A stretch of DNA of 64,000 nucleotides, from contig JAHDEX010000006.1 in the NCBI GenBank assembly GCA_020628545.1, forward strand, positions 32,643 through 96,642, in the 5' to 3' direction. The notes under the pieces were generated by a model. It saw nothing but the letters and a program-made list of their open reading frames with translations, was not told where the DNA came from and made no database searches. The translations under genes and the position numbers were made by a program. This DNA is from Paracoccaceae bacterium (GTDB lineage: Bacteria > Pseudomonadota > Alphaproteobacteria > Rhodobacterales > Rhodobacteraceae). Numbering within the stretch: the stretch's first letter is position 1; each line of letters starts with the position of its first letter. Positions 54,568 through 64,000 of this stretch are shown piece after piece.

Positions 54568-55491
54568 TCAGAGCGCCATGCTTCTGAACTGCGACGGACT
54601 GAGACCTGTATGTTTACGAAAGCAGCGGTTGAAGTTCGACAATGATCCAAACCCACTTTCCGTTGCGATATGCAGGATATTGTCAGCGCCGCGCAGTAGC
54701 ATCGCTTGCGCGTAATTCAGTCGCAACAATTGGATGTATTCATTCAATGTGATGCCGGTCGCGCGCTTGAAAACACTCATTGCGTATTTAGGATGAAGAT
54801 TGGCTGCGGACGCGATTAATGTGGTGGTCAGATCGTCCTGGAAATTCTCGACAAGGAAGTCGAGCATGCGACGGACCTTTTCGTTGACCGATGGATCGGG
54901 CGCAACAGCGGTACCGTCATTCGGCCCCACCAGGTCAAACTCGTCAAACACGATACGCTCAATCCTGAGGATAAGCTCCTCGCCAGCGTGCTGCACGCGT
55001 TTCGCGTCGTCAGATCGCAAGTATTCACCGATCCGCCGAAAAACCTCACGGTCTTCCCGCAGGCGCGGCTTTGAGACCAGAACACTGCCCTGCATTAATG
55101 CATCACGGATCTCTTCCGGTAGCCTGAGTCGGAAATACATCGACAGCGGGAGATGGATCGCTTCAAGAAGCGTACCGGTTTCGCAATCACTGAGCCGATG
55201 CGGCAGTCCGCCCCAGAACAGCGCAAGTTCACCCGCCTCCACCGAGAACTCCCGCCCAGACATCTCGTAGGTCAGTGCACCCGCGAAAACGTAGTTCAAT
55301 TCGATCTGCATATGCCAATGCGCAAGCTGCATGATCGCCGCCTGCCCTCGCCCGATCACGATCTCATTGGGAACCAACTCCACACGGGACTCGGCGGGGT
55401 TCCAGGTTTTTCGACCCAGAATCTTACTATCTGCGCAATATTCCTGACTGTCGTGCAAGACGCCGCACCTCCACGCCTGAATGATATTCAA
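54568..55491 (-). CDS. AraC-family transcriptional regulator (cupin sensor)
   Basis: ATGITLNEYIQLLRLNYAQAMLLRGADNILHIATESGFGSLSNFNRCFRKHTGLSPSQFR; exact start uncertain. Confidence 0.9.
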   Translation of the reverse strand: MNIIQAWRCGVLHDSQEYCADSKILGRKTWNPAESRVELVPNEIVIGRGQAAIMQLAHWHMQIELNYVFAGALTYEMSGREFSVEAGELALFWGGLPHRLSDCETGTLLEAIHLPLSMYFRLRLPEEIRDALMQGSVLVSKPRLREDREVFRRIGEYLRSDDAKRVQHAGEELILRIERIVFDEFDLVGPNDGTAVAPDPSVNEKVRRMLDFLVENFQDDLTTTLIASAANLHPKYAMSVFKRATGITLNEYIQLLRLNYAQAMLLRGADNILHIATESGFGSLSNFNRCFRKHTGLSPSQFRSMAL

Positions 55492-55533
55492 ACAGCGGCA
55501 TCACGCAAGCCGCATGACCAGGGAGGAACGATC

Positions 55534-56805
55534 ATGAAAATGCTGATGTCAACGACAGCACTTGCACTGACTGTCACCGCAAGTGCTGCAACTGCAGAGA
55601 CCGAAATCACGGTATGGGCATGGGGAAGTGCCGCACCGGGATTGCAGGCCACCGTCGACGGTTTCAACGCCCAACATTCTGATATCAAGGTCACAATTGA
55701 ACAGAATGGCTATTCCGATGTCAAAAGCCGCGTGCTCGCCGCCTGTGCGGCAGGTGGTGCCGGGCTGCCTGACGTCTTTCAGTTTCAGAACGTGGAAATG
55801 GAATTAATAATTGCACAATTCCCCGATTGCGCCGCGGACCTCGTGCCGCTGGGGTTTGATGACAGCGCGCAGTCCAACTTTCCGGAATTCAAGCTGTTCG
55901 CTCTGCAGCAGGGCGACAAGGTTTTAGGGATGCCGTGGGATAGCGGCCCCGTCATGATGTTCTACCGTCGGGACTTCTACGAAAATGCCGGCGTATCGCT
56001 TGAGGATATCGAAACTTGGGACGATTTCATCGAGGCCGGCAAAAAAGTTCAGGCCGCCAACGATGGCGTCACGATGATCAACGACAACCTGAATGGCGGC
56101 GCTGAGTTCTTCCGGATGATCGGAGAAGAACAAGGGTGCGGCTATTTCTCGGAAGATGGCGGTGAAATCACCATGGCCCAGTCAGGCTGCGTCGCGGCCC
56201 TCGAAGTTATTGGCAAGTTGAATGAGGCTGGCCTCGTGTCTGCTGCCAATTTCAACGAGAAAATCCAGAATAACGCCGCCGGTGTCGTGGCCACGCAGAT
56301 GAGTGGTGCGTGGATGGAAGGCCCGATCCGCAACAACGCGCCCGAAGATCAGGCAGGGAAATGGGGCATCTATGAAATGCCGAGTGTGGTTGATGATGGT
56401 GCACGCGCAGCCAACTTTGGCGGCTCCCTTCTTGCGGTCGCGGGCAACAGCGACAAAAAGGAAGCAGCCTACACATTCCTCTCCTACGCGCTTGGCACTG
56501 TCGAAGGACAGATCACGATGCTGAAGGATCAGGGTCTTGTCCCGTCACTGACATCTGCGCTTGACGATCCATACGTGAGCCAACCCAGCGCCTTCTGGGG
56601 CGACCAGGCCATCTGGCAAACTGTCTTGGGCCGATTGGAGCGGATCGCCCCGATCAACGGCACGGAATATTTCAGCGATGCCGATCAGGTTATGATCGCC
56701 ACACAAACCGCATTCCTTAACGGCGAGTACGACAGCGCGCAGGCGGCACTTGATGAGGCCGCAAAGCAGGTCATGTTCGCCACTGGTCTCCCGGTCGCTG
56801 AGTAA
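55534..56805 (+). CDS. CUT1 sugar ABC extracellular solute-binding protein
   Basis: MKMLMSTTALALTVTASAATAETEITVWAWGSAAPGLQATVDGFNAQHSDIKVTIEQ; GGGAGGA upstream; start reset from ORF track. Confidence 0.92.
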   Translation: MKMLMSTTALALTVTASAATAETEITVWAWGSAAPGLQATVDGFNAQHSDIKVTIEQNGYSDVKSRVLAACAAGGAGLPDVFQFQNVEMELIIAQFPDCAADLVPLGFDDSAQSNFPEFKLFALQQGDKVLGMPWDSGPVMMFYRRDFYENAGVSLEDIETWDDFIEAGKKVQAANDGVTMINDNLNGGAEFFRMIGEEQGCGYFSEDGGEITMAQSGCVAALEVIGKLNEAGLVSAANFNEKIQNNAAGVVATQMSGAWMEGPIRNNAPEDQAGKWGIYEMPSVVDDGARAANFGGSLLAVAGNSDKKEAAYTFLSYALGTVEGQITMLKDQGLVPSLTSALDDPYVSQPSAFWGDQAIWQTVLGRLERIAPINGTEYFSDADQVMIATQTAFLNGEYDSAQAALDEAAKQVMFATGLPVAE

Positions 56806-56816
56806 ACGATCAAGGT

Positions 56817-56849
56817 CAGGCGCGCGGCATCTGAAACGCCGGGCGCCTG
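56817..56849 (+). other. Intercistronic stem-loop between SBP and permease genes
   Basis: CAGGCGCGCGGC-ATCTGAAAC-GCCGGGCGCCTG: 12-position stem with one G.G mismatch. Confidence 0.75.
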
Positions 56850-56864
56850 TCAGAGGACCAACTG

Positions 56865-57728
56865 ATGCGCCTTCACACAAAAACCGCCTACGGATTTATC
56901 GGCCCCTATTTGCTGATCTTTGTAGCCTTCTGGGCGTGGCCGATCATTTACTCTTTCTATCTGTCGTTCCTATCGACCCGGCGCGCGCCGTGGTCCTTCA
57001 ATCCCACGATGACATGGGGACGACTGACGCAGGACCCAGCATTCTACAATGCATTGAAGAACACGCTGACGATCCTCGCCATTCAGGTCCCGATCATGAT
57101 CGCGCTCGCTTGCATTTTGGCAGTGCTGCTCAACTCGTCACTCTTGCGCGCCCGAGGCATCATGCGGTTTGCGTTCTTCGCGCCCGTTGTCATCGGTGAA
57201 GCCGCCTACGCTGCCGTCTTTCGTCTGATGTTCAACGCAGAATTTGGCATCGTGAACAAAGCGCTTGGCAGTATCGGCATCGGCAAGATCGACTGGTTTG
57301 CAAACCCGACTGCCGCAATGGCCCTCATCATTCTGGCGGTGACTTGGCGCTGGGTTGGATACAACGCCATCATCATCCTCGCTGGCCTACAGTCGATCCC
57401 CAAGGACGTTTATGAAGCCGCGATTCTCGACGCGGTGACACCCCGCCAGCAATTCCTGTATATTACCCTACCGCTCTTAAAACCGGTCATCGTGTTTTGT
57501 CTGGTCCTGTCGACCATTGGCTCCATGCAGCTCTTTGCCGAGCCGTTTTTGATCACGAATGTGGGCGGCCCGGGGGGCGCAACCGAAACACTTGGGCTCT
57601 TGCTCTATAAGCAGGCTTTTCTGAACCTAAATTTTGGCTATGCCTCTGCCATCGCTTACACCATAGCCGCGCTGGCGCTGATCATTTCCGCTTTGAACCT
57701 CTGGGTCTCAAGGGGGGACGACGCATGA
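56865..57728 (+). CDS. CUT1 sugar ABC permease (MalF-like)
   Basis: VYEAAILDAVTPRQQFLYITLPLLKPVIVFCLV EAA-loop. Confidence 0.92.
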   Translation: MRLHTKTAYGFIGPYLLIFVAFWAWPIIYSFYLSFLSTRRAPWSFNPTMTWGRLTQDPAFYNALKNTLTILAIQVPIMIALACILAVLLNSSLLRARGIMRFAFFAPVVIGEAAYAAVFRLMFNAEFGIVNKALGSIGIGKIDWFANPTAAMALIILAVTWRWVGYNAIIILAGLQSIPKDVYEAAILDAVTPRQQFLYITLPLLKPVIVFCLVLSTIGSMQLFAEPFLITNVGGPGGATETLGLLLYKQAFLNLNFGYASAIAYTIAALALIISALNLWVSRGDDA

Positions 57729-58561
57729 TCCTGAAGAACAAAGCGATGTTGCGCCGTTCGCTTTTGCTGCATGCGGTCATCGTTCCCCTTGCGATGCTAT
57801 GGCTGATCCCGATCTGGCTGATGTTCATCTTCGCGACACTGGGCGACAGCGCCATCTTCTCCCCTCAAGTGCGGCTCCTGCCGGGATCAGAGTTCTTCGA
57901 GAACTTTCGCCGCCTTCAAGAAGACCTCGACTTCGTGCGGACAGTCTTTGTCAGCTTCGTGGTCGCGCTGGTATACACTGTCGCTTCTGTCGTACTGACG
58001 TCCATGGCGGGATGGGCGATTGCCATTTACCGGTTCCGCGGGAAATGGGCCGTGCTGGGCCTGATCCTTGGCACATTAACCTTGCCCTACTTCGTCGTGG
58101 TCATTCCCCAGTTCATCATGGTCGCCAGGGATTTCGGCCTCTCGAACACATGGTTTGCCCTGATTATTCCGCCACTGTTCAATTCGCTGGGCGTGCTGTT
58201 CATGCGACAGGCCTTTGCGACGATGCCAAAGGACCTCTTTGATGCCGCGCGCGTCGAAGGCGTGACGGAATGGCAGATCTTTCGCTATGTTGCGATGCCC
58301 TTGGCCAAACCGATGCTCGCTGCTCTGTCGATCATTCTGTTTCTGCATTCGTGGAACAACTACCTCTGGCCGCTGCTAATTTCGAACGACAAGACGATGA
58401 TGACCGCGCCAGTCGCGCTTGGCTCGCTCTTTGGGCTGATGGACGTGTCGTGGGGAGGCGTCATGGTCGGCGCCACCTTAATGACCGCACCGATGCTGCT
58501 CGTCTTCGTCTTTTTGCAGCGCTTCTTCCTTACGGGGATCACAGCAGGGGCGGTCAAGTGA
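57725..58561 (+). CDS. CUT1 sugar ABC permease (MalG-like)
   Basis: LFDAARVEGVTEWQIFRYVAMPLAKPMLAALSI EAA-loop; ATGA overlap. Confidence 0.92.
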   Translation: MILKNKAMLRRSLLLHAVIVPLAMLWLIPIWLMFIFATLGDSAIFSPQVRLLPGSEFFENFRRLQEDLDFVRTVFVSFVVALVYTVASVVLTSMAGWAIAIYRFRGKWAVLGLILGTLTLPYFVVVIPQFIMVARDFGLSNTWFALIIPPLFNSLGVLFMRQAFATMPKDLFDAARVEGVTEWQIFRYVAMPLAKPMLAALSIILFLHSWNNYLWPLLISNDKTMMTAPVALGSLFGLMDVSWGGVMVGATLMTAPMLLVFVFLQRFFLTGITAGAVK

Positions 58562-58603
58562 CCGTTTTCCCTGCCCCATCACACTCACCGAAAGCCTGAC
58601 CAC

Positions 58604-60601
58604 ATGTCGCTCAAACCACTTTCGCGCCAAACGCTTGGCGTCTGCTATTATCCAGAACATTGGCCAGAGGACCGCTGGCCACAAGACGCGCGCATGATGG
58701 CTGAAGCCGGGATCGACTTTGTCCGGATCGGCGAATTTGCCTGGTCGCAGCTTGAACCAGAACCCGGGGAGTTCGACTGGTCATGGCTTGATCGCGCATT
58801 TGAGGTGCTTGCTTCAGAGAACTTGAAAATTGTCCTTGGCACGCCGACAGCCACGCCGCCAAAATGGCTCGTTGATCGCATGCCTGACATGTTGCCGATT
58901 GGACCTGATGGCAAGGTGCGTGGCTTCGGCTCCCGGCGGCATTACTGTTTCAGTCATGAGGGGTATCGTGCAGAGTGCGCACGTATCACAAAAGCACTCG
59001 CCGAGCGCTATGGCGATCATCCAGCATTAGCTGCGTGGCAAACCGACAACGAATATGGCTGCCACCGCACAACGCTATCTTACACACCAGCAGCGCTTTC
59101 AGCGTTTCGGGATTGGCTCGCGCAGCAATATCAAAGCATCGATGCGCTGAACCGCAGTTGGGGCAATGTATTTTGGTCGATGGAATACCGCAATTTTGAC
59201 GAGATCGAATTGCCAATGGGGGCAGTGGCGCAGCTCAATCCATCTCACCTGATCGATTTTCGGCGCTTCGCCTCGCAAGAAGTTGTCGCTTTCAACCGTC
59301 TGCAGACCGAGATCATCCGCCGCCATTCACCGGGGCGGCCAATCAGTCACAATTTCATGGGCAAGTTCTTTGAGTTCGATCACTACGCCGTCAGCGCCGA
59401 TCTCGAGATCGCGGCATGGGATGCGTATCCGCTTGGCTTTCTTGACCGAGAGATTGGCGATCTTGACCTAATGCAGCGCTACATGGGTGTCGGGCACCCT
59501 GACTTTGACGCATTCCACCATGACCTATACCGCACCTGCGGCCAGATGCGGCACGGCCTTGAAGACGGGCGCTGGTGGGTGATGGAGCAACAGCCGCCGG
59601 GTCCACTGAATTGGGGGGCCTTTAATCCGGAACCGAAGCCCGGCGCAGGACGTCTTTGGGTTTGGGAGGCCTTCGCGGCAGGTGCGGAGGTCGTCAGTTT
59701 CTTCCGCTGGCGTCAGCCCAGTTTCGCGCAAGAGCAGATGCACGAAGGGCTTCTTCTGCCTGATGGCACACCGAACCAAGGCTACGAACTATGCAAAGAA
59801 ATCACGGCTGAACTGGAGACCCTCCAACCGGCTCCTGTAAATACGAGGTCCGATGTTGCGATCATCTTTGACTACGACAGCCAATGGATGTCCGAGATCA
59901 TGCCGGTGGCCGCTGATGCCTCTCATTTCGATAGCGTTCTACGAAGCTATGCGGCGTTGCGACGGGCGGGGATTAGCGTGGACATCGTACCCCCGACTGC
60001 TGAGGCCATCGCCGGCCGGAAGCTGATTGTAATGCCGATGCTGGTGCATTGCCCGGAGGCGTTTACACAAGCCCTGAGTGAGAGCGACGCAGTCATTCTT
60101 GCGGGACCCTGGACCGGCGCAAAGTCCAGTAATTTCACAATCCCAGAAGGTTTACCGCCCGGCACGCTAAGAAACCTCATCGATATCACCTTACGGCGTG
60201 TTGAAACGCGGCGACCCTTTGCGCCATTCGCTCTGGAGGATGGCAACACGTTTGCTGGTTGGCGGGAAGACATTGCCGCAGGTGAGGACGTATCCGTCCT
60301 CGAGCGCCTCGAAACAGGTGAACCGGCGGTGCTTCGGCAAGGGAACATGATCTACCTTGCCGGCCGGGGGGATGACGCGATGCAAGATAAGCAGATCCGG
60401 CGCGCGCTCGATCTCGCCAAGGTACCGTGGATCGACCTGCCAGAGGATGTGCGCGTTCGCAAAAACGGCCCTCTCACGTTCGTCTTTAACTACGGACAGG
60501 GCACCTGCGACATCAGCTCGCTCATGGGCAATCAAAGCCTGAAAATGGGAACACTGAATCTGGTCCCATGTGGCGTGACCTGTTTCGGGCCGGCGTCGTA
60601 G
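58604..60601 (+). CDS. GH42 beta-galactosidase
   Basis: GVCYYPEHWPEDRWPQDARMMAEAGIDFVRIGEFAWSQLEPEPGEFDWSWLDRAFEVL...WQTDNEYGCH...GRLWVWEAFAAGAEVVSFFRWRQP. Confidence 0.93.
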   Translation: MSLKPLSRQTLGVCYYPEHWPEDRWPQDARMMAEAGIDFVRIGEFAWSQLEPEPGEFDWSWLDRAFEVLASENLKIVLGTPTATPPKWLVDRMPDMLPIGPDGKVRGFGSRRHYCFSHEGYRAECARITKALAERYGDHPALAAWQTDNEYGCHRTTLSYTPAALSAFRDWLAQQYQSIDALNRSWGNVFWSMEYRNFDEIELPMGAVAQLNPSHLIDFRRFASQEVVAFNRLQTEIIRRHSPGRPISHNFMGKFFEFDHYAVSADLEIAAWDAYPLGFLDREIGDLDLMQRYMGVGHPDFDAFHHDLYRTCGQMRHGLEDGRWWVMEQQPPGPLNWGAFNPEPKPGAGRLWVWEAFAAGAEVVSFFRWRQPSFAQEQMHEGLLLPDGTPNQGYELCKEITAELETLQPAPVNTRSDVAIIFDYDSQWMSEIMPVAADASHFDSVLRSYAALRRAGISVDIVPPTAEAIAGRKLIVMPMLVHCPEAFTQALSESDAVILAGPWTGAKSSNFTIPEGLPPGTLRNLIDITLRRVETRRPFAPFALEDGNTFAGWREDIAAGEDVSVLERLETGEPAVLRQGNMIYLAGRGDDAMQDKQIRRALDLAKVPWIDLPEDVRVRKNGPLTFVFNYGQGTCDISSLMGNQSLKMGTLNLVPCGVTCFGPAS

Positions 60602-60734: not shown

Positions 60735-60989
60735 ATGTCCTCAAACCGAACCCAAACGCTGATCATTCGCGGAGAGCTGCACAGCCCATCGTTCTTGCCG
60801 TGGGTTGCACGACACAGCGTTCGGTTAGGTTTGACCTGCGAAACCCTGCGCGCAGACGCCAGCGAGGCGATATTCGAGGTCGGAGGACAGGCTGAACTAA
60901 TTGACGCCTTTGAAGTTGGCTGCCTTCTCGGTCCCTTCGACGTGTGGGTCGAGGCGATTTCGCGGACCCCAAGCCAATCCAGCAAGTGA
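60735..60989 (+). CDS. Divergent acylphosphatase-fold-like small protein, possibly catalytically degenerate
   Basis: TLIIRGELHSPSFLPWVARHSVRLGLTCETLRADASEAIFEVGGQAELIDAFEVGCLLGPFDVWVEAISR follows acylphosphatase spacing but lacks the canonical VQGVGFR Arg and the Asn of WVRN. Confidence 0.5.
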   Translation: MSSNRTQTLIIRGELHSPSFLPWVARHSVRLGLTCETLRADASEAIFEVGGQAELIDAFEVGCLLGPFDVWVEAISRTPSQSSK

Positions 60990-61152: not shown

Positions 61153-61836
61153 GTGACGCCGGTTAATCCGGTAGGGGATGGGACATACTGGACGATGGCT
61201 GCCAAAACTGATGCGCAATGGGTGCCGGTCGCGGTGTCTGCTGACATTCTCGCCGGGACGGTGGTTCCGGCACGGCTCCCGACCGGTCCGATAGCCGTCT
61301 GGCGTTCAGCCACTGGTAACCTCTACGCAAACGGAGACCGCTGCCCGCATCGCGGCATGCGCCTGTCTCATGGGTTCGTCCGCGGTGAAACGCTATCCTG
61401 TATCTATCATGGCTGGCGGTTCGGCACCGATGGGGCTTGTCAAAAGATCCCTGCCCATCCCTCTGTCACACCGCCGAAGACTATTAATTGTGGTCCTTTG
61501 CATGTCGCCGAAACGAACGGTGTCGTCTGGGCTGCTGCCAAAGAGCCCGCAGAGCCGCCTCAATTCTACCCGGGGTATGAGGCGCTGCGAAGTCTTGTCA
61601 TAGTTTCAACACCTGCTGCGATCGCAGCTGCAACAAATGCCACGATAATCGACGGTGCGATCCAAACGACGCTTGGCGGACAAGATGCGGTCTTGCTGAT
61701 GTCACCGCAGGGACCCCAAGAGGTCTTCATCCTCGTTCTGGCTCGACCAAACCTCAACCTGGCCGACCGCTTGGCGGTCTCGTCCGCATTAGAGGCGTTG
61801 CGCAGATCGGCCGAAGCGGTGGAGGGAGCCGCATGA
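61153..61836 (+). CDS. Rieske [2Fe-2S] protein with ~85-aa C-terminal extension; putative Rieske subunit of a split oxygenase
   Basis: CPHRGMRLSHGFVRGETLSCIYHGW = CxH-x17-CxxH; GTG start; ATGA overlap with next ORF. Confidence 0.88.
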   Translation: MTPVNPVGDGTYWTMAAKTDAQWVPVAVSADILAGTVVPARLPTGPIAVWRSATGNLYANGDRCPHRGMRLSHGFVRGETLSCIYHGWRFGTDGACQKIPAHPSVTPPKTINCGPLHVAETNGVVWAAAKEPAEPPQFYPGYEALRSLVIVSTPAAIAAATNATIIDGAIQTTLGGQDAVLLMSPQGPQEVFILVLARPNLNLADRLAVSSALEALRRSAEAVEGAA

Positions 61837-62675
61837 TGCCCAATACGATGCGCGATGCGTGGTATCCGGTTGGCCTTCTTTCGGGTCTCAGCGATGACGG
61901 CAAAGACAGCCAGCTTCTCGGTGAACCCATATCGGTTTTCGGGGCAAAGAATGGGCGTCCAAGCGTCGAAAGTGCGGGTCGCACACTGCCTGTTGTCGAG
62001 CGATTTGGGCACTTGTGGACAAGTTTGGGGTCACCAAACAAAGACCTGTTTACGATCCCAGAAGCAGACCATCCTGAACGTAAGCTGGTGGACGTTGGTG
62101 TTGTGCGCGTGAAATGCTCTCCCCTCCGCGCGGTTGAGAATTTCCTGGATGTGGCGCATTTCCCTTTTGTTCATACGGACATTCTTGGGGCAGAGTCACA
62201 CCCCGAAGTCAGCGACTACAAGGTCGAAATCCGCGACGATGTTGATGAGGTCTGGGCGACAAAAGTTGAATTCTTCCAACCGCAGGCCGCCAAATCGGCC
62301 GGTGGCGGGATCACGACCGAATACATGTACCGAGTTCCGGCGCCGACCTGCGCTGTGCTTTATAAGACCTGCCCACCAAGACCAGGCGAATGGGATGTGA
62401 TCACCCTTTTTGTGCAGCCGCTGACAGAGGACTTATGCGACGTCTGGCCGTGGATGGCCCTATTCGACGACGAAAGCTCCATGACGGACCTGATCCATTT
62501 TCAGCAACTGATCTTCTTGCAGGACCGATCGATCCTTGAAAATCAGCTCCCCAAGAGGCTCCCCCTCGATCCTGCGATGGAGACACCGACACGCGCAGAC
62601 CTCACATCGGTTGCCTATCGGCGTTGGTTGAAGCGGCACAATTATACTTTTGGTGCGCAACTGGTGGCTGAATGA
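61833..62675 (+). CDS. Rieske-oxygenase catalytic (VanA-like) domain protein lacking the Rieske motif
   Basis: MRDAWYPVGLLSGLSDDGKDSQLLGEPISVFGAKNGRPSVESAGRTLPVVERFGHLWTSLG...RAVENFLDVAHFPFVHTDILG (mononuclear iron motif), no CxH...CxxH. Confidence 0.85.
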   Translation: MMPNTMRDAWYPVGLLSGLSDDGKDSQLLGEPISVFGAKNGRPSVESAGRTLPVVERFGHLWTSLGSPNKDLFTIPEADHPERKLVDVGVVRVKCSPLRAVENFLDVAHFPFVHTDILGAESHPEVSDYKVEIRDDVDEVWATKVEFFQPQAAKSAGGGITTEYMYRVPAPTCAVLYKTCPPRPGEWDVITLFVQPLTEDLCDVWPWMALFDDESSMTDLIHFQQLIFLQDRSILENQLPKRLPLDPAMETPTRADLTSVAYRRWLKRHNYTFGAQLVAE

Positions 62676-63328
62676 TCCTTTACGATTATATCCTGTCCCC
62701 AAGCTGCTATAAGGTGCGGCTGCTCGCGTCGCTGTTGGAAGTACCGCTTGAAGTCCGTCCGGTCGATTTTCACCCTGGCCGCGAGCATAAGAGCGCAGCG
62801 CTGCTGGCCTTGAACCCGGCAGGCAGTATTCCGATCCTGGTTGACGGTGATCTGATCCTCACGGAAAGCGCAGCCATGTTGGCCTACATCGCAGGACAAC
62901 ACGGCCCGGGCTGGCTTGCAGGGTCAAATCCGGTAGATATCGCTCAGCAACAGCAGTGGCTTGCGTTTTCTCATCGCCTGACACATGCCCTCGGCGGCGC
63001 ACGACTTGTCGAGATGCTGCATTTTTACGGCGACCTGCCAGCGCTTCAGGCCAGCGGCATCGCGGCGTTGCGTGAGTTGGAAGCGGCCCTCTTCGCGCGA
63101 CGTCTTTCGGGCGGCACCTTCCTTGTCGCGGATGCTCCATCCATCGCAGATATCGCTTGTTTCCCTTATGTGGCACTGGCACCGGACGGAAGTGTTTCAC
63201 TCGATATTTATCCGTCAATTCGCATCTGGATGCGCGCCATCCGCGCGCTCCCGGGCTTCATTGAAATGCCGGGCATCCATCGTCTGCATGAACTAGCACC
63301 AGACCCTTTCGAGGAGGCGTCTTTGTGA
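62672..63328 (+). CDS. Glutathione S-transferase family protein
   Basis: LYDYILSPSCYKVRLLASLLEVPLEVRPVDF...ALNPAGSIPILVDGDLILTESAAMLAYIA. Confidence 0.92.
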   Translation: MILYDYILSPSCYKVRLLASLLEVPLEVRPVDFHPGREHKSAALLALNPAGSIPILVDGDLILTESAAMLAYIAGQHGPGWLAGSNPVDIAQQQQWLAFSHRLTHALGGARLVEMLHFYGDLPALQASGIAALRELEAALFARRLSGGTFLVADAPSIADIACFPYVALAPDGSVSLDIYPSIRIWMRAIRALPGFIEMPGIHRLHELAPDPFEEASL

Positions 63329-64000
63329 CTGGAGTGCTCTTCAAGAATTGTGCTGCGGTGATCGTAAACCATGGCCAAGGTCATGAAGTCCTACGCGATG
63401 TTGACTTGTTGACAGAGGGACCTGCGATCAAATCCATCGGACCAGATCTGAACGCACCTGTTGCTGAAACGAAAGACGCAAGTGGCTGGTTCATTTACCC
63501 CGGCCTTGTGAACACCCACCATCACTTTTTCCAGACCTTTGTACGGAACCGCGCGGATCTCGATTGGACGAAACTGAGCGTGATCGAATGGCTCGACTTG
63601 ATCTACCCTATCTTTTCCCGTCTGAACGAAGATTGCTTCTACCATTCCTCGCTCACAGCCATGGCTGAACTGATCAAGCACGGCTGCACGACCGCGATGG
63701 ACCATCAATATTGCTTCCCGCGGCACGCCGGTAAGCACCTCATCGACCGTCAGTTTGAGGCAGCGGAACTGCTCGGCCTGCGCTTTCATGCAGGGCGCGG
63801 CGGGAACACATTGCCGAAATCTGAAGGGTCGACGATCCCCGACGAAATGCTTGAGACGACGGATGAGTTCATCGCGGATTGCGCGCGTGTCATCGACACG
63901 TATCACGACGCGGGCCAGTTCAGCATGGGTCAGGTTGTTGTGGCGCCCTGCCAGCCAGTCAATTGCTACCAGGACACAATGGTAGAGTCTGTGGCCCTTG
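63325..64000 (+). CDS. TRZ/ATZ-type amidohydrolase (8-oxoguanine deaminase/guanine deaminase-like), partial at right edge
   Basis: GTG start overlapping the GST stop (GTGA); WFIYPGLVNTHHHFFQTFVRNRADLDWTKLSVIEWLDLIYPIF...HGCTTAMDHQYCFPR; open to window end. Confidence 0.85.
   Translation, partial: MTGVLFKNCAAVIVNHGQGHEVLRDVDLLTEGPAIKSIGPDLNAPVAETKDASGWFIYPGLVNTHHHFFQTFVRNRADLDWTKLSVIEWLDLIYPIFSRLNEDCFYHSSLTAMAELIKHGCTTAMDHQYCFPRHAGKHLIDRQFEAAELLGLRFHAGRGGNTLPKSEGSTIPDEMLETTDEFIADCARVIDTYHDAGQFSMGQVVVAPCQPVNCYQDTMVESVAL

Follow-up and report, generated by a model that had tools for sequence, protein, structure and literature searches.

A conserved, probable two-gene Rieske oxygenase of Rhodobacterales and rhizobia with a free-standing Rieske subunit, apparently an undescribed relative of NdmCDE

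In a 64,000-nucleotide stretch of Paracoccaceae DNA (hereafter the window), two adjacent genes, ORF1 and ORF2, very probably encode a single Rieske non-heme-iron monooxygenase divided between two proteins; the enzyme would act with a GST-like protein and most likely on a methylpurine. The split pair is real, and it is conserved and widespread. Split Rieske oxygenases as such are already known from NdmC/NdmD/NdmE; the initial annotation of this DNA, whose idea of a split oxygenase holds, had missed this precedent as well as the GST and purine-gene context. The pairing of a free-standing Rieske protein with a catalytic subunit is apparently an undescribed relative of NdmCDE: our search of the literature for a Rieske-less oxygenase paired with a separate Rieske protein returned only NdmCDE papers, from a limited library that leaves novelty unproven.

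ORF1 (61195..61836; this and all features below lie on the forward strand) encodes a Rieske protein of 213 aa (PF00355 Rieske, E 8.5e-22) that is 63% and 44% identical to its orthologues in the genomes G032 and G033, respectively. Both ORFs are present as initially annotated, except that ORF1 probably starts at ATG 61195 and not at the listed alternative GTG 61153, because its two nearest relatives begin at this ATG, without a longer ORF. The Rieske [2Fe-2S] cluster-binding segment CPHRG...CIYHGW (CPHRGMRLSHGFVRGETLSCIYHGW) is located at 61342..61416. Rieske is the sole domain recognised by Pfam in ORF1, with no catalytic-domain match, and flavin, NAD and plant-type ferredoxin domains are absent from the 213-aa protein. 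ORF2 (61833..62675, 280 aa) corresponds to the NdmC-like, Rieske-less catalytic subunit (PF19112 VanA_C, E 1.3e-19, with no Rieske match in Pfam) and shares 86% identity with the G032 protein, 72% with that of G033 and 40% with that of G026. It contains the mononuclear-iron motif E-N-xx-D-xx-H-xxxx-H (E102, N103, D106, H109 and H114; ENFLDVAHFPFVH; 62136..62174) and, further downstream, Asp231 in QDRSILENQ (62523..62525), which falls opposite the Asp in EDKPVIESQ of NdmA in the alignment and is probably the carboxylate iron ligand. The places originally assigned to the two motifs were right but for one codon at one end of each stretch, and the ATGA start/stop overlap between the two genes was confirmed at 61833..61836.

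A conserved Trp pair brackets the Rieske core and gives the extent of the deletion in ORF2. Indeed, W10 and W62 of ORF2 are separated by 52 residues, compared with 103 between W9 and W112 of ORF1, so that ORF2 lacks about 51 residues surrounding the cluster and SVESAGRT (61962..61985) stands in the gap, in agreement with the replacement first proposed. AlphaFold2 models, each built from a 39-sequence alignment, have a mean pLDDT of 95 for ORF1 and of 84 for ORF2, whose residues 111-122 and 152-156 are modelled with low confidence. When these models were submitted to Foldseek, GxtA/SxtT were matched by the whole ORF2 chain (TMq about 0.85) and by the ORF1 chain (TMq about 0.76). Since the Rieske part of ORF1 represents about 125 of its 213 residues and alone could reach a TMq of at most about 0.59, the tail aligns too. 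This tail (from residue 126; 61570..61836), modelled as a strand, a helix, three strands and a long helix, forms an extra domain of about 90 aa with a predicted fold like that of a reduced SRPBCC domain; it is homologous to the NdmD tail (hhalign 95.6%, P 1.2e-8) and would be a vestigial catalytic domain devoid of iron ligands. Compared by sequence, the two halves gave weak collinear matches, and the ORF1 tail against the ORF2 catalytic domain was not significant on its own; because of this weak similarity between the halves the vestigial domain is proposed on the basis of the fold and of the NdmD-tail homology. In the models, ORF1 is thus more than a bare Rieske domain, namely an oxygenase chain whose catalytic domain has shrunk, and, leaning on structure, ORF1 and ORF2 can be read as complementary losses on the same complete Rieske-oxygenase chain.

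The conservation of this organisation was evaluated by scanning a one-genome-per-species collection. The scan returned 80 loci, of which 79, together with the window's own, make up the 80 scored loci; as the best-scoring ORF2 matches, they sample the close clade of ORF2. L094 (Rhizobium sp. RCAM05350), in which the operon genes are in fragments, probably owing to an assembly error, was excluded. The 80 loci come from Rhodobacterales, Rhizobiales and others, and all of them have a free-standing Rieske ORF (195-281 aa) directly 5' of the Rieske-less ORF and a GST-like gene directly 3' of it, which establishes the conserved co-occurrence of the adjacent pair. The partition of motifs is also the same throughout, in line with the complementary motif content initially described and with the Pfam results: CxH-n-CxxH is present in 80/80 ORF1 homologues and only there, NxxDxxHxxxxH occurs only in ORF2 (80/80, against 0/80 in ORF1), and a hidden CxH-n-CxxH was sought in ORF2 and found in 0/80 loci. 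E102, N103, D106, H109, H114 and Asp231 are invariant in the 80 ORF2 homologues, including the 2-His-1-carboxylate ligands and the bridging Asp (D106, H109, H114 and D231). Four-nucleotide overlaps join ORF1 to ORF2 in 77 of the 80 loci and ORF2 to the GST-like gene in 72. Calculated against the locus L020, dN/dS is 0.16 for ORF1, 0.045 for ORF2 and 0.056 for the GST-like gene, rough values given a dS near saturation, which indicate that the three genes are under purifying selection. Among 397 genomes sampled from the family in one-per-genus style, 30 have a clear ORF2 homologue, whatever its architecture. Root-nodule rhizobia commonly carry the operon, e.g. on pRL10 of Rhizobium johnstonii 3841.

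In Rieske oxygenases, electrons pass between subunits, and both metal centres are usually carried by one protein. Single-chain VanA-type enzymes such as SxtT/GxtA, NdmA/NdmB and dicamba monooxygenase share with our pair the same fold and, summed over ORF1 and ORF2, the same metal-ligand motifs; however, they have both metal sites on one chain whereas ORF1 and ORF2 carry one site each. The Rieske ferredoxins of three-component dioxygenases (e.g. CarAc, naphthalene dioxygenase ferredoxin) are, like ORF1, free-standing proteins with one Rieske cluster, but they feed oxygenases having their own Rieske centre, while ORF1 would replace the internal centre; moreover, ORF1 is about 100 aa longer and carries the predicted vestigial catalytic domain. 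The closest parallel is the caffeine-pathway N7-demethylase of Pseudomonas putida CBB5. Its non-heme-iron monooxygenase NdmC has no Rieske cluster and takes electrons from a Rieske domain that is fused, in NdmD, to an FMN/NAD/plant-type ferredoxin reductase, and the GST-like NdmE is required for solubility and activity (PMC4408171, PMC10380055). NdmCDE forms a 3:3:3 complex of 360 kDa and catalyses the N7-demethylation of 7-methylxanthine (PMC10380055); its structure was still called unsolved in a 2026 paper (PMC13237722). As in NdmC/NdmD/NdmE, the window combines a Rieske-less catalytic subunit, a Rieske centre on another polypeptide, an adjacent GST-like protein and a purine-metabolism context. 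Unlike NdmD, the Rieske part is here a separate 213-aa protein with no linked reductase gene, the gene order is Rieske-catalytic-GST instead of the NdmC-NdmD-GST of fused loci, and a fused NdmD is present in 0/80 scored split loci.

Phylogenetic trees were used to relate both forms. In the catalytic tree, NdmC-like proteins encoded beside fused NdmD-type genes stand in for authentic CBB5 NdmC; one group (99/96) unites the split forms with near relatives and lies beside these fused-locus proteins, and both together are apart from single-chain oxygenases (99/97), in a tree whose base is open, some single-chain outgroup rows being very long-branched and the exact rooting unsure. In the Rieske tree, the fused forms fall into a single group (99/96) with the free-standing forms next to it (92/93), and both are again apart from single-chain oxygenases (99/97). 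These topologies indicate that ORF2 shares ancestry with NdmC-like proteins and ORF1 with NdmD-type N-termini, and since the two trees agree in these placements a single split is probable; read most simply, it was followed by either one reductase fusion or one reductase loss. Fused NdmD-type genes (569-622 aa) adjoin NdmC-like and GST-like genes in, among others, Mesorhizobium sp. AR02 and G026, the latter a member of the window's genus with an intact fused form. Sinorhizobium meliloti has the NdmC-NdmD-GST layout; in one strain (AK57, pSymA; L144, 6001-7768) the NdmD-type gene is read as two overlapping ORFs, and a nearby BMP gene seems fragmented. Two other architectures support a modular history. 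The Rieske, catalytic, GST and VanB-like reductase genes are four adjacent genes in L214 (3623-6573), and L209 (3104-4360) encodes a 418-aa protein with a Rieske part and a plant-type ferredoxin domain, devoid of any recognised flavin/NAD domain, which is possibly a relay form. Finally, in L215, L216, L217, L233, L234 and L235, single-chain oxygenases from this superfamily have BMP-type binding proteins as neighbours and may represent, in present-day form, the ancestor before the split. A fuller history can be put forward only tentatively, and we would lean against it as a whole: an ancestral single-chain gene would have been duplicated and the copies would have lost opposite metal sites, so that neither works without the other; one Rieske subunit, drawing on a general ferredoxin pool instead of a dedicated reductase, could then serve more than one catalytic subunit, and the operon would demethylate a modified purine, e.g. 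7-methylguanine or 7-methylxanthine.

Some relatives combine two catalytic genes with one Rieske and one GST gene, either of the fused type (L144, L204, L205, L207 and L219) or of the free-standing type (L218 and L244). This composition suggests that two catalytic subunits may share one Rieske donor and speaks against 1:1 as a universal ratio, contrary to the fixed stoichiometry that had been deduced from the gene overlap. With regard to the electron donor, no reductase gene is linked to ORF1/ORF2 in the window, and a phmmer search of the flanks of the 80 scored loci detected a reductase-like gene in 1/80. When the window's own genome was searched with a fused NdmD, we recovered, besides ORF1, a PaaE-like reductase, a NirD-type Rieske protein and one more Rieske match, and a PF00175 (NAD_binding_1) search gave two proteins, the PaaE-like one and a 245-aa ORF which, by its length, would be Fpr-like. 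No VanB-type reductase was detected in this genome, neither PF00175 protein being VanB-like by context or length; the assembly is 94% complete, and an undetected reductase is therefore possible. The PaaE-like reductase is itself read as two overlapping ORFs (L017, 1489-2552), possibly a frameshift. G032, which is 99% complete, has only three Rieske ORFs, i.e. the ORF1 orthologue and two ORFs of 117 and 206 aa that look, by length, like NirD and a bc1 subunit. Plant-type ferredoxin domains are present, and the donor would be a general ferredoxin/ferredoxin-reductase system. We infer, with good support, that ORF1 provides the Rieske centre in trans: the proposal that ORF2 lost the core and is supplied with it by ORF1, as first suggested, is supported by the motif partition, the structure models, the two congruent trees and G032.

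The probable first gene of the operon encodes a small acylphosphatase-like protein (60735..60989), a homologue of which lies 5' of the Rieske gene in 78 of the 80 scored loci. The ORF list starts it at GTG 60687 and the conserved part begins with the M at 60735. Its Pfam score is sub-threshold (20.7 vs 22.5 bits), its orthologue in Rhizobium johnstonii carries an acylphosphatase annotation, and in the alignment a LIDAxExGCSLGP-like motif is conserved and the catalytic Arg position is not, so that the protein apparently lacks this Arg. Downstream, the GST-like, NdmE-like protein (62672..63328; PF02798/PF13417; 80/80 scored loci) overlaps ORF2 by an ATGA, and is followed by an 8-oxoguanine-deaminase-like amidohydrolase of 455 aa (63325..64000, running past the window). 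The latter has the 8-oxoguanine deaminase 7ww2 as its best PDB match and scores 380 bits over its full length against NF006055, below the cut-off of 532, and therefore the substrate of the system is uncertain. Genes for a BMP-type binding protein, an ABC ATPase and two permease-like ORFs come next; among the 80 scored loci, the deaminase-like gene is found in 74, the BMP binding protein in 75 and the ABC ATPase in 74. The fused cluster of Mesorhizobium AR02 adjoins genes for a true guanine deaminase (412 bits against a cut-off of 375) and for a molybdopterin oxidoreductase. Because of these purine-type neighbours and of the N7-demethylation of 7-methylxanthine by NdmC, a methylated purine such as 7-methylguanine is our best guess for the substrate; by this analogy, we consider the methylpurine class about as probable as all other substrates together. 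No paper tying a methylpurine to the operon was found in the library searched.

Taken together, we infer the following mechanism. The Rieske cluster of ORF1 would take up electrons, and ORF1 would dock on ORF2 at the place where the Rieske domain of the neighbouring subunit sits in an ordinary Rieske-oxygenase ring. The electron would then reach the mononuclear iron of ORF2 via the conserved bridging Asp106, and this iron would activate O2 and oxidise the substrate, most likely a purine N-methyl group that would leave as formaldehyde. The GST-like protein may keep the complex together, as proposed for NdmE, while the adjacent importer would take up the purine and the amidohydrolase would deaminate it.

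Several other explanations were considered. A frameshift, a sequencing error or a decayed pseudogene of one ordinary oxygenase gene might be evoked by two ORFs lying in different frames with a 4-nt overlap, but the same architecture in 80/80 loci and the low dN/dS reject it, as the initial annotation had anticipated; each ORF moreover has its own N-terminal strands, and the joined ORFs would not give one normal chain, so that we regard this explanation as virtually without probability. Also very improbable, if less so, is that the operon is a broken NdmCDE, with an NdmD that was stripped of its reductase part and survives as a remnant without function. Although NdmD-type N-termini are homologous to ORF1, tail included, and G026 has the intact fused form, the free-standing form is maintained across families with its own gene order, its cluster ligands are present in 80/80 loci and the dN/dS of ORF1 ranges from 0.13 to 0.16. 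Reductase loss is thus possible as history, and non-function of the remnant is not supported. Somewhat more credit, still small, can be given to ORF1 as an independent Rieske ferredoxin for another oxygenase, with ORF2 served by another Rieske protein or by none: ORF1 is a protein of its own with a variable tail at its end, and many oxygenases draw on Rieske ferredoxins of about 110 aa. Yet ORF1 adjoins ORF2 in all the scored loci, exceeds such a ferredoxin by about 100 aa, folds along the oxygenase chain and clusters beside NdmD-type N-termini, and G032 contains no other Rieske oxygenase that it could serve or draw from.

The explanation that deserves most attention accepts the split and its mechanism and differs in the reaction, e.g. 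the hydroxylation of another N-heterocycle or nucleobase in place of purine N-demethylation. It is consistent with the closest solved structures, by both sequence and fold, being the saxitoxin hydroxylases SxtT/GxtA, and with BMP importers being assigned several substrates, the best NCBIfam model here being a putative B6 importer, below cut-off. On the other hand, the GST-like protein and the NdmC-type ancestry point to methylpurines, and guanine/8-oxoguanine deaminase-like genes adjoin both the fused and the split forms; a different reaction is therefore a real but lesser possibility.

Two halves of one oxygenase with their metal sites on different polypeptides would make the intersubunit electron step measurable and rewirable, and each half could be mutated, titrated or swapped singly. 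Made of smaller proteins and lacking a fused reductase, the free-standing form may be easier to study than NdmCDE; a possible benefit of the split is suggested by the relatives in which two catalytic genes accompany one Rieske gene. Knock-out tools exist for root-nodule rhizobia that carry the operon, such as Rhizobium johnstonii 3841. If true, the methylpurine reading would imply a scavenging route for RNA-derived methylated bases that is widespread in rhizobia and Rhodobacterales. Upstream of the operon, the region 54568-60601 encodes an AraC-type regulator, a sugar-type ABC transporter and a GH42 beta-galactosidase, and looks ordinary.
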